Virus record (IMG/VR): IMGVR_UViG_3300047312_000378 | Location: 1-46,752 of that record | Source of the DNA: a virus | DNA length: 46,752 nt | Reading direction: 5' to 3' (one strand) | Shown: positions 26,148-46,752 of the stretch, one piece after another | Layout of the letters: each line of letters starts with the position of its first letter | Position numbering within the stretch: the first letter of the stretch is position 1 | The notes under the pieces: model-generated | Told to the model about the DNA's origin: nothing | What the model saw: the letters and a program-made list of their open reading frames with translations, nothing else | Database searches by the model: none | Program-made: the position numbers and the translations under genes

Positions 26148-26220
26148 TGTGGGGTGGAGGAGTTGGTACCTCGCCGGGCCCATAACCCGGAGACCGCTGG
26201 TTCGAACCCAGCCCCCGCAA
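26148..26220 (+). tRNA. tRNA-Met(CAT), initiator-like
   Basis: A full cloverleaf folds: acceptor TGTGGGG/CCCCGCA (one T-G wobble), D stem GAGG/CCTC with loop AGTTGGTA, anticodon stem CCGGG/CCCGG, loop CCCATAA with anticodon CAT at 26181-26183, T stem GCTGG/CCAGC, loop TTCGAAC. The three consecutive G-C pairs in the anticodon stem and the A11-T24 pair are initiator hallmarks, and the sequence resembles bacterial tRNA-fMet. Odd points: C at position 33 instead of T, a T1-A72 pair instead of the usual mismatch, and no encoded CCA (ACTA follows). Confidence 0.85.
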
Positions 26221-27291
26221 CTACTTTCTGAAGAGCGCTTCCGCCTCGGCCTTCTGCGCTTCCTTGGCCTGTAGCTCTCGGACGGTGCGCTCGATGTCCC
26301 GGTAGTCGAGGCCGTACGCTTTGCAGGTCGCCTTCAGGCGGTGGTTCGCGTCGTCGGCTTCTTCGTCGACCCAGGCCGTCAGCGCGGTCTCTACCAGCAG
26401 CCCCCGCAGTTCGGCCGAGCTCATCTTCTGGGCCCGCGCGGTCAGCTGCTTCCCGGTCTCCAACCCCCGGCGCTCGAGCACCGCCTCCGGAGCACCGCCA
26501 GAGGTCATGGCCGCCACCACCAGGCGGAGATCGTTGGGCTGCAGGTCCTGCCGGCGCTCCACCGCCTCGACGATTCGACCCATTGCGTAGGAGCGAACTC
26601 GGCGAATCATCGTCCGCACCGCCCTCTCCCCCGCCGCCGCGCTGCCCGCCCGCCTGGTCGCCGCTTCCTCGGAAGCATCGAGGCGCTTGAGCTCGGCCGC
26701 CGCTTCTCGAACCGTGGGCCGATCACCCCACCGGTTCTTCACCGTGACCAGGCCAAGGGCCGCCTTCTGTAGGCGATCGCCCTTTCGCCGGGCCACAAGC
26801 ACCGCAACGTCGGCCACCATGTGCCCCTCGACGAAGGCCTTCCGCGCCTCGGGGATGAGGTCGAGCAGCTTCATTCGCGCGTAGACGGTCGAGGCGGTCT
26901 TGCTCACCCGCTCCGCCACCTTCTCCACCGGGTACCCGAATTCATCCCGCAGCCGACCGTAAGCCTCGGCCTCCTCCATCGGGTGGAGGTCCTCCCGTTG
27001 AACGTTTTCAATCAGCTGGATCTCGAGCGCCTCCTCCGCGGTGAGGTCCTGAATCCGAACAGGGACCTCCCCGAGCTTCGCCGCCTTGGCTGCCCGGTAG
27101 CGTCGCGCTCCGGCGACGATCACCAACCCGTCGTCACCCGGCCGCACCAGGAGCGGCTCGAGAACTCCGTGCTCCTTCACGTTGGCGATCAGCTCGGCCA
27201 GGTCGCCGAACGACTTCCGCGGGTTGTTCGGGTCCTCTCGGAGCTCGCTCAGCTTGACGTCACGGGTCTCGACCTTCTTCGCCTTGGCCAT
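26221..27291 (-). CDS. ParB-like nuclease/partition-domain protein
   Basis: The 356-residue protein has the ParB/Srx fold start: KLSELREDPNNPRKSFGD, then VRPGDDGLVIVAGARRYRAA and IQLIENVQREDLHPMEEAEA, followed by an HTH region (KVAERVSKTASTVYARM). No ParA is encoded, so a role as regulator, CTPase switch or nuclease is as likely as partition. The ATG at 27291 gives the normal family start; a GTG at 27333 would add 14 unusual residues. Its stop codon directly abuts the convergent tRNA. It is the last gene of the leftward operon, with its own promoter-like region upstream. Confidence 0.85.
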   Translation of the reverse strand: MAKAKKVETRDVKLSELREDPNNPRKSFGDLAELIANVKEHGVLEPLLVRPGDDGLVIVAGARRYRAAKAAKLGEVPVRIQDLTAEEALEIQLIENVQREDLHPMEEAEAYGRLRDEFGYPVEKVAERVSKTASTVYARMKLLDLIPEARKAFVEGHMVADVAVLVARRKGDRLQKAALGLVTVKNRWGDRPTVREAAAELKRLDASEEAATRRAGSAAAGERAVRTMIRRVRSYAMGRIVEAVERRQDLQPNDLRLVVAAMTSGGAPEAVLERRGLETGKQLTARAQKMSSAELRGLLVETALTAWVDEEADDANHRLKATCKAYGLDYRDIERTVRELQAKEAQKAEAEALFRK

Positions 27292-35923: not shown

Positions 35924-36178
35924 GTGAAAGGCGACCACGTGGTGATCAACCTGAGGACGTTCGTGTTTGAGTGCAAGCACTGCGGCCTGTCGTACCCGAT
36001 GGCTGCGCCGGCCCCGATCAACCTCGTGGTGGCAGCCTCGAAGGCATGGCTTAGCGATCATCGGCATTGTTCGGCACCATCCCCCGTGAACCACGCGACA
36101 GCACCACTCGCCGAGCTTCGCGAGATTCTTGAGATCGATCGAAGCCAGTCGCGGCTGCAGCCAAGGGGCACCAAGTGA
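35924..36178 (+). CDS. Small Cys/His protein
   Basis: The 84-residue protein has FECKHCGLSYP and later DHRHC, together a probable zinc site. GTG start at 35924. It overlaps the following HTH gene by four bases. Confidence 0.5.
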   Translation: MKGDHVVINLRTFVFECKHCGLSYPMAAPAPINLVVAASKAWLSDHRHCSAPSPVNHATAPLAELREILEIDRSQSRLQPRGTK

Positions 36179-36510
36179 CCTTCGATCAGGTGGTGCGAGA
36201 GCAGCTGCGCGAGGTGGTGCGGGAGGAGATCCGCGCCGCCTTCAGCGAACACCGCGGCGGTGTGGAAGACGCGCCGTTGACCTACCGCCAGGCGGCGAAG
36301 CTCCTCGGTTGCCACCCCAATACGATCGCCAGCTGGCGCCGTCGCGGGCTCTTGCCAGCAACTGGAACCGGGAGAATGACCCGTGTGCTCCGCGGGGACG
36401 TTCTTCGAGCTCTTGATCAGTTGAAGGCGCCGGCGGTCACGACCGATGAGTCGCCAGAGGAATTCGCCAGGCGGGTGATCTCCAGCAAGAAGCCCAAAGG
36501 GGGGCGCTGA
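36175..36510 (+). CDS. MerR-type HTH protein, likely excisionase
   Basis: The 111-residue protein has a helical N-terminus and a clear helix-turn-helix: LTYRQAAKLLGCHPNTIASW followed by RRRGLLPATGTGR and VLRGDVLRAL. This is the domain used by excisionases and DNA-bending factors, and it lies two bases before the integrase gene, so an Xis or integration-control role is likely. Confidence 0.7.
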   Translation: MTFDQVVREQLREVVREEIRAAFSEHRGGVEDAPLTYRQAAKLLGCHPNTIASWRRRGLLPATGTGRMTRVLRGDVLRALDQLKAPAVTTDESPEEFARRVISSKKPKGGR

Positions 36511-36511
36511 A

Positions 36512-37882
36512 ATGGGTTCGGTCTACAAGCGGGGTGGCATCTGGTGGCTGGCCTACGTCGACGAGACCGGCAAGCGCCAGCTGCGGAGCGCCGAGACTCG
36601 GGACGAAAGGATTGCTCGCCGCCGGCTCGAGGCGCTCGAGAGCAGTTCGGAGCTGATGGCGCGCACCAGCGCCCGCCCGACCACCGTCGACCAGTGGGTG
36701 ACCCAGTGGGCCAAGGGCCGGAAGAACTGGACCGCCGATGGCGAGATGGGGCGGCTCGCGAAGCACGTCCTCCCGGTGCTTGGCCACCGGCGCTTGATTG
36801 ACGTCACCACCGATGACGTCCGGGTGCTGGTCGCGAGCTGGAGCGAGCTCGCGCCGCGGACCATTCGGAACGTCTTCTGGGTGATGAGCAAGGTGTTCAG
36901 CGACGCGGTGGCGAAGAAGCTGATCGACACCACCCCTTGCGTGCTCCTGAAGGGTGACCGGCCGAAAATCTCCGACAAGGACCGGCGCTGGCGCCAGACC
37001 GCGGTCTTTACCCGGCTCGAGGCCGAGCAACTTCTTTCGTCGGAGCTCGTGCCCGCCGACCGGCACGTCCTCTGGGCGCTGGGCTTCGGAGCTGGCCTCC
37101 GCCTGGGCGAGGTGTCGGCGCTGCGCTGGCGCGACTACGAGGCGGATCGCGAGGGCCTGGGGTGCCTGCACATCAGCAGCAGCTACACCCGGATCAACGG
37201 CGAAGAGAAGGCGACCAAGACCGAGACCCCGAGGCAGGTTCCGGTTCACCCCGCCCTCGCCGAGGTGCTGACCGAGTGGAGGCGCACGGGGTGGCAGAAG
37301 CAATTCGGCGCCGCCCCGGTCGACAGCGACCTTGTGCTCCCCAACCGGGTTGGCCGGCACCTCACCGACAACAACGTTCACGCCGGTCGGATGCAGGACT
37401 TCCGGGCGCTCGCGCTCCGCCCCCGGCGATTCCACGATGCCCGGCGAACGTTCATCAGCCTGGCTCAAGCCGGGGGTGCGTCTTCGGGGGTGCTGAAGCT
37501 GGTCACCCACGGCTCGCCCGGGTCGGTGATGGACCTCTACACCACCCTTCCCTGGTCCTCGCTCTGCCAGGCGGTGCTCTGCCTCAAGCTCGAGCGGCGC
37601 GGGACCCGCCCGGCCGGGTTGCTACACAAGCCGCTACAGTCGACCGGAGACCGCGTGCAACTTGCTCAACTACTCAACAATCTGAAATGCCCAAGAAGGG
37701 ATTCGAACCCGCCCAATCAGGCCTCTGGCGGTACCCTTCACGAGCTGTTTCAGAGGGGCGGTGGTCACGATTCGGAAGCCGCGAAACAAGAATCCGATGC
37801 ACTTTGTAGCACTGTAGCAACCGATCAGGGTCGCCGCGCCCAGGTCGTGCTCGCCCGGTACGCGAAGGCGGGCGGCCAGTGA
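36512..37882 (+). CDS. int: Tyrosine-recombinase integrase containing attP
   Basis: The 456-residue integrase has an N-terminal arm-binding part (VYKRGGIWWLAYVDETGKRQ), a SAM-like core-binding domain near 60-150, and a catalytic domain with Arg197 in GLRLGE, His308 and Arg311 in FHDARRTF, His333 in THGSPGS and nucleophile Tyr343 in DLYTTLPW. The last 64 residues, from about 393, include PRRDSNPPN, a translated antisense tRNA end. The attP core lies there, so integration would replace the C-terminus in the prophage. Confidence 0.92.
   Translation: MGSVYKRGGIWWLAYVDETGKRQLRSAETRDERIARRRLEALESSSELMARTSARPTTVDQWVTQWAKGRKNWTADGEMGRLAKHVLPVLGHRRLIDVTTDDVRVLVASWSELAPRTIRNVFWVMSKVFSDAVAKKLIDTTPCVLLKGDRPKISDKDRRWRQTAVFTRLEAEQLLSSELVPADRHVLWALGFGAGLRLGEVSALRWRDYEADREGLGCLHISSSYTRINGEEKATKTETPRQVPVHPALAEVLTEWRRTGWQKQFGAAPVDSDLVLPNRVGRHLTDNNVHAGRMQDFRALALRPRRFHDARRTFISLAQAGGASSGVLKLVTHGSPGSVMDLYTTLPWSSLCQAVLCLKLERRGTRPAGLLHKPLQSTGDRVQLAQLLNNLKCPRRDSNPPNQASGGTLHELFQRGGGHDSEAAKQESDALCSTVATDQGRRAQVVLARYAKAGGQ
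37688..37710 (-). other. attP core: 3' end of a tRNA gene
   Basis: On the minus strand this is GGGTTCGAATCCC followed by TTCTTGGGCA: a T loop, the 3' half of a T stem, and an acceptor 3' strand CTTGGGC with discriminator A. No matching 5' acceptor (GCCCAAG) lies upstream, so only a tRNA 3' end is present, as expected for attP. The predicted host tRNA has acceptor GCCCAAG/CTTGGGC, a form seen in some tRNA-Leu genes. Confidence 0.75.
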
Positions 37883-38148
37883 ACATCGACACCGAAGATC
37901 TGAAGCGGAAGCTCGGCGAGCCGGGCGCTCCAGGATCTCTGACCGTCGACAGACCGGTTCTCGATGCGCTGATTGCCGGCATCGACAAGCTTCAAGCCGA
38001 GCACGAAGGCTGGCAGCGCGACTGCCTCTCCGCCGTGAAGCGCGAGCAGGCGCTACGGAAGATGATCGCCAAGGCGCGCGCCGCGATGCGCTGCGGGTAC
38101 GACAACGACGCCTACGCCGCTCTCGACACTCGGAGGGCCGGGCGATGA
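37879..38148 (+). CDS. Hypothetical 89-residue helical protein
   Basis: GTG start overlapping the integrase stop by four bases. Charged and helical, with a single pattern KREQALRKMIAKARAAMRCG; no family recognised. Confidence 0.5.
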   Translation: MNIDTEDLKRKLGEPGAPGSLTVDRPVLDALIAGIDKLQAEHEGWQRDCLSAVKREQALRKMIAKARAAMRCGYDNDAYAALDTRRAGR

Positions 38149-38535: not shown

Positions 38536-38802
38536 ATGAGGGGCCCTCCCGACCTCACCGCGGCCGCGGCGAAGCGCTTGCGCCGAGCGGTTGCCGGGCT
38601 CCGAGGTGCGAAGCATTCAATCGGGAAGGCTCGGACCTGGCTCCCGGCTTGTGAGCTCGACCTCGATCTGACATTCGAGGTGAAGAAGATTCGAGAGGTC
38701 GAGATCCGCCTGCTCGCGCTGGTGGCCAAGCTCTACGACACCGAACGCTTTGCCACCCGTGACGCTGAGGCGCCACCGCGGCGCCACCGGAAGGCCGCGT
38801 GA
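38536..38802 (+). CDS. Hypothetical 88-residue basic protein
   Basis: ATG at 38536 has AGGAG eight bases upstream; the open frame before it is non-coding in character. The product is basic, helical, with one Cys. Its stop overlaps the next gene's start. No family recognised. Confidence 0.5.
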   Translation: MRGPPDLTAAAAKRLRRAVAGLRGAKHSIGKARTWLPACELDLDLTFEVKKIREVEIRLLALVAKLYDTERFATRDAEAPPRRHRKAA

Positions 38803-39240
38803 TGACCCTTCGACCGCTCACCATTCGAGCCGCGCGCCTGCTCGTCAAGTCGCTCCACCGCCACCTTCCCAGGGTTCAGGGCGGTTGCTTCGCCACCGCG
38901 GTCTACGACGGCGATCGGCTCTGCGGGGTGGGGATCGCCGGGCTGCCGCGAGCTCGTCTCGCGATGGACGGTAAGACCATCGAGATCCACCGGGTCGCAA
39001 CCGACGGGACGAACAACGCGTGCAGCAAGCTTTACGGCGCCCTGTGCCGAGCTGCGGCCGCCATCGGCTATTCACGCGCGCTGACTTCGACGCTGCCTGG
39101 GGAAAGCGGGATTTCTCCGCGGGCTGCGGGCTTCACGTTGGCCCATCAGACGCAGGGGGGGGGGTTGGTCTCGACCTTCTCGCTCTCGTGGTGCTCCCGT
39201 GATGGGCGGATCGAAGCTGGTCTGGGAGAAGTCGCTGTGA
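38799..39240 (+). CDS. XF1762-like protein, frame broken at a G10 tract
   Basis: RPLTIRAARLLVKSLHRHLP, GGCFATAVYDGDRLCGVGIA and THE later DGTNNACSKLYGALCRAA are hallmarks of the XF1762 phage family. The family should end WSRPSRxR...LVWEK. This ending exists here only in the +1 frame after the G10 run at 39155-39164. With one G fewer, a 146-residue protein ends ...SKLVWEKSL at 39240, and its stop overlaps the methyltransferase GTG (GTGA). As written, the frame instead runs on into the methyltransferase. Either an assembly error or a phase-variable/slippage fusion. Confidence 0.75.
39155..39164 (+). repeat. G10 homopolymer that decides the reading frame
   Basis: Ten G in a row within the XF1762-like gene. 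G9 (or G12) gives the standard family C-terminus and a separate methyltransferase; G10 gives a 492-residue fusion. Such runs are prone to sequencing error, replication slippage and transcriptional slippage. Confidence 0.9.
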
Positions 39241-40277
39241 GCGCCCTGGTGCTCCTCGGCGATTGCGTCGAGCAGATGGCCACGCTCGAGGCGGACTCGG
39301 TTCAGTGCTGCGTCACCTCCCCGCCGTATTGGGGGCTGCGCGACTACGGGCACGCTGGGCAAATCGGGCTCGAAGCGACCCCGGAACTGTTCGTCGAGCG
39401 CATGGTCGAGGTGTTCCGTGCGGTCTGGCGGGTGCTGCGCGGTGATGGCGTTCTCTGGCTGAACCTCGGCGACAGCTTCGCGTCTGGCGGCCGAGGTGCT
39501 CAAGGGAAGCGCGGCCAGATGATGGGGCGCTCGGTTGCGGCCGCGAGGGCGATGGTTGGGCGCGTGGCCAGAACGGCCCCGAAGGGCCTGAAGCCGAAAG
39601 ACCTGATCATGATGCCGGCTCGGGTCGCCCTGGCTCTGCAGGCAGACGGCTGGTTCCTCCGACAGGACATCATCTGGGCCAAGCCGAACCCGATGCCTGA
39701 GGCGGTCACCGACCGACCGACCTCCGCGCACGAGCACATCTTCCTGCTCTCAAAGTCGGGGGACTACTTCTACGACGCCGAGGCAATCAGGGAGCGGGCC
39801 ACCGGCACCGCCCATGCGCGCGGGAGCGGCGTAAATCCGAAGGCTGCGGGGCAATCGAGAGACCGCCAATACGCCGAGGGGACGACCGTCCCCAAAATGG
39901 ATACTTCTTCAGATCGCCGGGTCGCCGGCTTCAACCAACGGTGGAAGACGAAACAGAACGCCTCGTTCTCGGCCTCGGTGACGAAGCTCGTCGAGTGGCG
40001 GAATTCCCGGAACGTCTGGTCGATTCCGAGCCAGCCCTACCGCGGCGCTCACTTCGCGGTGTTCCCAGAGGCGCTGCCGCAACGGTGCATCCTCGCCGGG
40101 AGCCGCCCGGGCGACCTGGTGCTCGACCCGTTCACCGGTAGCGGCACCACCGGCGCGGTCGCGCTGAAGGAAGGTCGGCGGTTCGTCGGGTGCGAAATCA
40201 ACCCCGAGTACCGCGAACTCGCGATGCGCCGAATGCAGGTCACACCGGGGTTTGTTTTCGAGGCCACCAGCCCATGA
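39237..40277 (+). CDS. Site-specific DNA methyltransferase (N4-cytosine/N6-adenine, beta order)
   Basis: The 346-residue enzyme has motif IV TSPPYWGLRDYG with the TSPPY at residues 27-31, and SAM motif DPFTGSGTTG near residue 299, so IV precedes I, the beta class. TSPPY suggests N4-cytosine or N6-adenine methylation. The GTG at 39237 overlaps the predicted stop of the XF1762-like gene; as sequenced it is in frame with it. No restriction endonuclease is nearby. Confidence 0.9.
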   Translation: MSALVLLGDCVEQMATLEADSVQCCVTSPPYWGLRDYGHAGQIGLEATPELFVERMVEVFRAVWRVLRGDGVLWLNLGDSFASGGRGAQGKRGQMMGRSVAAARAMVGRVARTAPKGLKPKDLIMMPARVALALQADGWFLRQDIIWAKPNPMPEAVTDRPTSAHEHIFLLSKSGDYFYDAEAIRERATGTAHARGSGVNPKAAGQSRDRQYAEGTTVPKMDTSSDRRVAGFNQRWKTKQNASFSASVTKLVEWRNSRNVWSIPSQPYRGAHFAVFPEALPQRCILAGSRPGDLVLDPFTGSGTTGAVALKEGRRFVGCEINPEYRELAMRRMQVTPGFVFEATSP

Positions 40278-46740: not shown

Positions 46741-46752
46741 GGTGTACGCAGG
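46741..46752. repeat. 12-base terminal direct repeat, right copy
   Basis: Identical to positions 1-12. Joining the ends once gives a 46,740-base circle whose terminase promoter side and gpZ gene become neighbours of cos. Confidence 0.6.

Follow-up and report, generated by a model that had tools for sequence, protein, structure and literature searches.

An attP core inside the integrase gene of a contractile-tailed phage, a distant relative of the Myxococcus phage Mx8 module

The integration module and its core

The DNA considered here, called the window throughout, is the whole of a 46,752 nt stretch from a virus (IMG/VR record IMGVR_UViG_3300047312_000378). Genes for terminase, portal, Mu-like head, sheath, tape measure and baseplate proteins lie to the left of its integrase gene, int, and genes for a DNA methyltransferase, replication initiation, RusA and a neck protein lie to its right. 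The features relevant to integration are the following, with the basis of each in brackets.

36175–36510, plus strand: Uoi-like helix-turn-helix gene, candidate excisionase, ending 1 nt before int (HTH_17; phrog excisionase families)
36512–37882, plus strand: tyrosine integrase gene (456 aa), in its phage form (open reading frame; Pfam; phrog_1 integrase; 37% identity to Mx8 Int)
37100–37540, plus strand: stretch encoding the catalytic domain, with R197, H308, R311, H333 and Y343 (invariant alignment columns)
37617–37638, plus strand: candidate left arm-type sites, GGTTGCTACA at 37617–37626 and GCTACA at 37633–37638 (inverted repeat)
37688–37710, minus strand: attP core, antisense to int, codons 393–400 (sequence; counterpart tDNA 3′ ends within the int genes of relatives)
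37712–37879, plus strand: phage-specific Int tail, residues 401–456, which integration would cut off (translation; matching tails in virtually excised relatives; pooled GC dip at codon position 2)
37802–37867, plus strand: predicted C-terminal helix, residues 431–452 (AlphaFold2, pLDDT about 66–75, moderate confidence)
37805–37822, minus strand: candidate right arm-type sites, TGTAGC at 37805–37810 and TGTAGCAACC at 37813–37822 (inverted repeat)
37879–38148, plus strand: 89-aa open reading frame, its start overlapping the stop codon of int in GTGA (ORF list)
1–12 and 46741–46752, no strand assigned: 12-nt terminal identity, GGTGTACGCAGG, a cos-like end (comparison of ends; relative G681)

The integrase (Int) carries the Pfam domains Phage_int_M (residues 60–148) and Phage_integrase (PF00589, residues 187–344), and it is assigned to phrog_1 integrase. 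In two family alignments (A1 and A2), R197, H308, R311, H333 and Y343 are invariant. The last of these is the catalytic tyrosine. None of the conserved R, H/R, H and Y stands beyond residue 343, and the att core occupies codons 393–400, in agreement with the first-pass annotation, which had placed all catalytic residues before the core.

The core itself reads GGGTTCGAATCCCTTCTTGGGCA on the minus strand (37710 to 37688). This 23-mer is composed of a T loop, the 3′ strand of a T stem, the acceptor strand CTTGGGC and the discriminator A, and it is the sole match in the window at up to three mismatches, with 0.00 expected in shuffled sequences. It covers codons 393–400 exactly, is translated within the sequence CPRRDSNPPNQ, and is followed by 56 residues of Int. 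The earlier description of a tRNA 3′ end on the minus strand of a 456-codon integrase, giving the signature PRRDSNPPN, was therefore borne out on each point open to a check. ARAGORN found no complete tRNA at the core, its only call in the window being a phage-encoded tRNA-Met (CAT) gene at 26148–26221.

Around the core, the candidate left and right arms form a perfect 10-bp inverted repeat. The hexamer GCTACA occurs 11 times in the window, four of them around the core and in inverted order on its two sides, an arrangement that is only mildly significant given that 15 of 917 control windows were equally extreme; these repeats are suggestive candidates for arm-type sites. No Pfam family was found for the 89-aa reading frame that begins within the int stop codon, and integration would break this overlap. 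Further to the right, a single open reading frame (38799–40277) joins a Mom-like modification domain (residues 1–122) to a DNA methyltransferase (residues 151–480).

Regarding the ends of the window, the relative G681, whose terminase is 62% identical, has 12 identical nucleotides of its own, GGTGCGTAGAAT, at the homologous ends, the match at the left being offset inward by one base. In both the window and G681 (ends L140 and L141) the identical ends adjoin the terminase gene at homologous places, a comparison that also takes in the starts of L087, L088 and L089. It suggests a 12-nt cos-type end in this group of phages, and we read the window as virion-type DNA with ends of this kind. Because phage genes lie on both sides of int and the ends are cos-like, the site is attP and the present Int tail is encoded by the phage.

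Kinship with the Mx8 module

By far the best phage match of the window Int is the Int of Myxococcus phage Mx8, with 37% identity over residues 1–361 (361 residues, E 8e-56), and the product of 36175–36510 resembles Mx8 Uoi (39% over 36 aa, E 3e-5). The Mx8 record has an annotated recombination site at 2387–2415, inside intP, that reads in antisense as ACGGGTTCAAGTCCCGTACTCCTCGCCAC, a tRNA 3′ end. Four marks of the Mx8 int/uoi/attP module are found in the window: a tyrosine recombinase homologous to Mx8 Int, a Uoi-like helix-turn-helix gene directly upstream, and an attP core that lies inside int, past the catalytic tyrosine and domain, and consists of an antisense tDNA 3′ end. The two modules differ in the target tRNA, the window core ending in CTTGGGCA and that of Mx8 in CTCCTCGCCA, and in the length of the tail, 56 residues in the window Int and about 112 in Mx8. 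Moreover, the window phage has a Mu-like head and contractile tail module whose nearest counterparts are in Bordetella phages. The genome is accordingly mosaic, with a head protein closest to Bordetella phages (47%) in the part from 187 to 23000 and an Mx8-like integration module at 36175–37882; relatives with similar terminases carry integrases that are only distantly related, or none in the contig.

Integration of Mx8 at an attP inside int is reported to exchange a 112-residue tail for 13 residues and to leave the enzyme less active (PMC4701971), while one summary of the literature states that the change alters specificity rather than inactivating the enzyme (PMC6070905). An attP within int has been regarded as a rarity, with Mx8 among a handful of examples (PMC4701971), and the authors of Islander make an exception for the Mx8 and SSV integrases, which extend across attP (PMC4383910). 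The window site had been put forward as possibly related to, and yet distinct from, that of Mx8. The relationship holds, in the 37% identity of Int and in the shared anatomy, but not the distinct kind: the attP in int is real, and the module joins the Mx8 kind as a new, distantly related member.

Other known systems resemble this module in part. In streptococcal ICEs inserted at rumA, attR falls within the integrase gene and the C-terminus is changed upon excision (PMC4701971), but the enzyme is a serine integrase and the target is not a tDNA. The archaeal SSV-type (“suicidal”) integrases also have the recombination site inside the integrase gene (PMC8371274); there, however, integration splits the gene between its N-terminal and catalytic parts and disables the enzyme, whereas the window site makes no such division and leaves all catalytic residues on one side. 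In the integration-dependent immunity of actinobacteriophages the core lies in a coding sequence and integration removes its 3′ end, altering the properties of the protein; the altered gene, however, is that of a repressor, which sheds an ssrA-like degradation tag (PMC9934374). In the window the gene bearing the core is int, and no ssrA-like tag was seen at the end of its product.

The exchange of integrase ends in relatives

Homologues of the window Int were surveyed, at E ≤ 1e-25, in the phylum of a Deltaproteobacteria MAG that bears the relative L003, and were found in 16 of 379 genomes of this phylum. Of the 20 genomic loci, 14 have an int frame that extends, in antisense, across the 3′ end of an intact gene for tmRNA or a tRNA; the genes concerned are those of tmRNA, tRNA-Asp, -Glu, -Ala, -Leu, -Pro and a tRNA predicted to be SeC. 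For five loci a distal copy of the core (18–28 nt) was located and the two copies were joined in silico. Upon this virtual excision, the Int tail changed from 5 to 85, from 12 to 77, from 90 to 56, from about 500 to 74, and from 27 to 68 aa. In addition, the DNA of the loci L061 and L067 is 93% identical along int as far as the core, and the two part just past GGAGGCGGCGGGAGTCGAAC, beyond which L061 continues as a tmRNA, resembling L022, and L067 as phage DNA. By their sequences these two are a natural prophage/phage pair, for which no reconstruction is needed.

Cores resembling tDNA also lie at the equivalent position of int in other viral contigs (L051, L055, L062, L064 and L002), and no recognisable tDNA end was found within int in L014, L017, L021, L026, L052 and L060. 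The locus L016, which has a core, a 28-codon tail and no intact tDNA within the locus, is ambiguous in its state and was counted as integrated. Since many relatives hold the 3′ ends of different tRNA and tmRNA genes at the equivalent position of int and in identical antisense orientation, the core of the window lies beyond chance. Taken with the homology to Mx8, the five virtual excisions and the natural pair give good support to the earlier claim that attP lies inside the integrase gene, and the survey suggests that this is the usual arrangement across the whole integrase family, with tmRNA and no fewer than five different tRNA genes in use.

Two of the surveyed elements have unusual junctions. 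L003 (G001:C90), on a short contig, has two related integrase genes in tandem beside a tmRNA gene, and these are possibly stacked elements. At the distal end of the L020 element (L039–L041, on G176:C1) there are three copies of the tRNA-Glu core, of 16–18 nt and 97 nt apart, as if att had been duplicated repeatedly.

The first-pass annotation had further proposed that integration exchanges the last 60 or so residues of Int for others derived from the host. A change of the C-terminus is indeed what the virtual excisions and the L061/L067 pair display, and 56 residues follow the core in the window. The source and extent of the replacement are different from what was proposed, as what is newly translated is the antisense strand of the very tRNA or tmRNA gene, which often adds few residues. 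Tails of the integrated form range from 3 to 457 codons, with 12 of 19 shorter than 46 codons and many of only 3–14, and the T arm is read in all three frames. Long tails (78–457 codons) persist in some integrated forms, and the loss of length is hence not universal. Integration would thus appear to be mainly the loss of the phage tail, and not the gain of a useful host tail.

A search of host genomes with the 23-base core, also proposed earlier, yielded no host tRNA. The exact core was absent from 331 genomes of the homologues' phylum, no match with up to one mismatch was present in 299 genomes of a second phylum, and none with up to two mismatches was convincing in 141 genomes. When tRNA ends were allowed to match CTTGGGCA degenerately, the 379 genomes of the homologues' phylum returned only tRNA-Phe and one tRNA-Leu(GAG), with differing T stems; either isotype is a plausible target of the window phage. 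The exact 23-mer was present in a single viral contig, L007, which was rejected as a link to the host, for it belongs to an unrelated, tRNA-rich phage with a tRNA-Arg(CCG) and with 26 tRNA and tmRNA genes, a tmRNA among them, in 14 kb.

The phage-specific tail and its meaning

Phage-form tails are uniformly long: all 13 have at least 46 codons (P about 4e-6 under random stops), a threshold picked after the data were seen, and their lengths differ from those of the integrated tails (Mann–Whitney P 0.013, with L016 counted as integrated). Pooled over the phage tails, GC at the three codon positions is 0.74/0.59/0.75, against 0.69/0.49/0.89 in the body of Int; this is a weaker version of the coding pattern of the body, with position 2 depressed as in coding DNA. 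The AlphaFold2 model of the window Int is confident to about residue 360, has a disordered linker from 366 to 436 that includes the core, and ends in the predicted helix listed above. The model of L067 ends in a helical hairpin (residues 449–465 and 469–482) with pLDDT of about 81–91. A common sequence motif of the tails was rejected, as a leave-one-out HMM over the phage-form tails matched the close pair L055/L062 only. Scores for an amphipathic helix exceeded those of shuffled sequences in the window (P 0.03), L027 (P 0.01) and Mx8 (P 0.01), and did not in most others. On these models, the phage tail may be a translated helical appendage, borne on the linker that holds the att core, which integration would remove; what replaces it probably matters less.

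These data bear most directly on the alternative that attP was placed in int for compactness only. On that account the attP is genuine, but the tail is functionless in both forms and integration leaves Int unregulated. The dissimilar sequences of the tails, the crossing of the T arm in all three frames and the end of the folded domains near residue 360 would all be expected if this were so. We nonetheless consider it rather unlikely, as the uniform length of the phage-form tails (with its post hoc threshold), the depressed GC at codon position 2, the confident hairpin of L067 and the diminished activity reported for Mx8 Int in its prophage form (PMC4701971) speak against it. Very unlikely, in our view, is a second account, by which the tRNA-like stretch is a relic or a chance match, the functional attP is at another place and the tail belongs to Int like any other part. 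The unsuccessful search for the host tRNA and the six relatives without a tDNA end in int lean toward it, but it would leave unexplained why many relatives have different tDNAs in the same place and antisense orientation, and why prophage relatives have an intact tDNA together with a distal copy of the core; moreover, the expectation for a chance 23-mer is 0.00. A third, that the window is an integrated prophage or a junction contig with a host-derived tail, was rejected as scarcely credible: such a junction would likewise show a tRNA 3′ end adjoining a phage int, but here no tRNA body follows the core, phage genes from the methyltransferase to the neck protein go on beyond int, and the window ends have 12 nt in common, as in G681.

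The window is thus very probably the genome of a temperate, contractile-tailed phage with the attP core within its own Mx8-type int, and with an integrase that lacks the tail in the lysogen. Recombination by Int would take place between the core and the 3′ terminus of a tRNA gene in the host; this gene would stay in working order because the core restores that terminus. The integrated int would keep the folded domains, read into the antisense strand of the tRNA and usually stop soon after. The free phage would accordingly make an Int with the 56-residue tail, i.e., the end of the linker and the terminal helix, and the lysogen a form without it. We infer that the window phage integrates into a tRNA gene and that its Int then loses activity; by analogy with Mx8, the Int of the lysogen would be less active, and excision would be restrained until a Uoi-like factor acts. 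The “built-in switch” of the earlier description may be understood in this sense, following the Mx8 literature.

While the Mx8 case itself was already known, what is new here is that the arrangement is widespread in the Mx8-like integrase family, together with a structural hypothesis for the part that is removed. The survey also supplies matched sequences of the phage and prophage forms of Int. As a result, the old question of what lowers the activity of Mx8 Int in its prophage form becomes directly testable, the lost part being predicted as a helix or hairpin at the end of a flexible linker. For those who annotate genomes, integrase C-termini that read like RDSNP, TRTR or GVEPG are a warning, since these are translated antisense ends of tRNA or tmRNA genes and mark att sites. 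Finally, and as a tentative proposal about which we keep more doubt than conviction, the Mx8-like family may have in common a C-terminal helical element, borne on a linker and active only in the free phage, for example in bridging Int protomers or in binding an arm site or an accessory protein. Integration would amputate this element by way of the antisense tRNA or tmRNA sequence, and would thereby provide a self-timed switch independent of the gene that is targeted.
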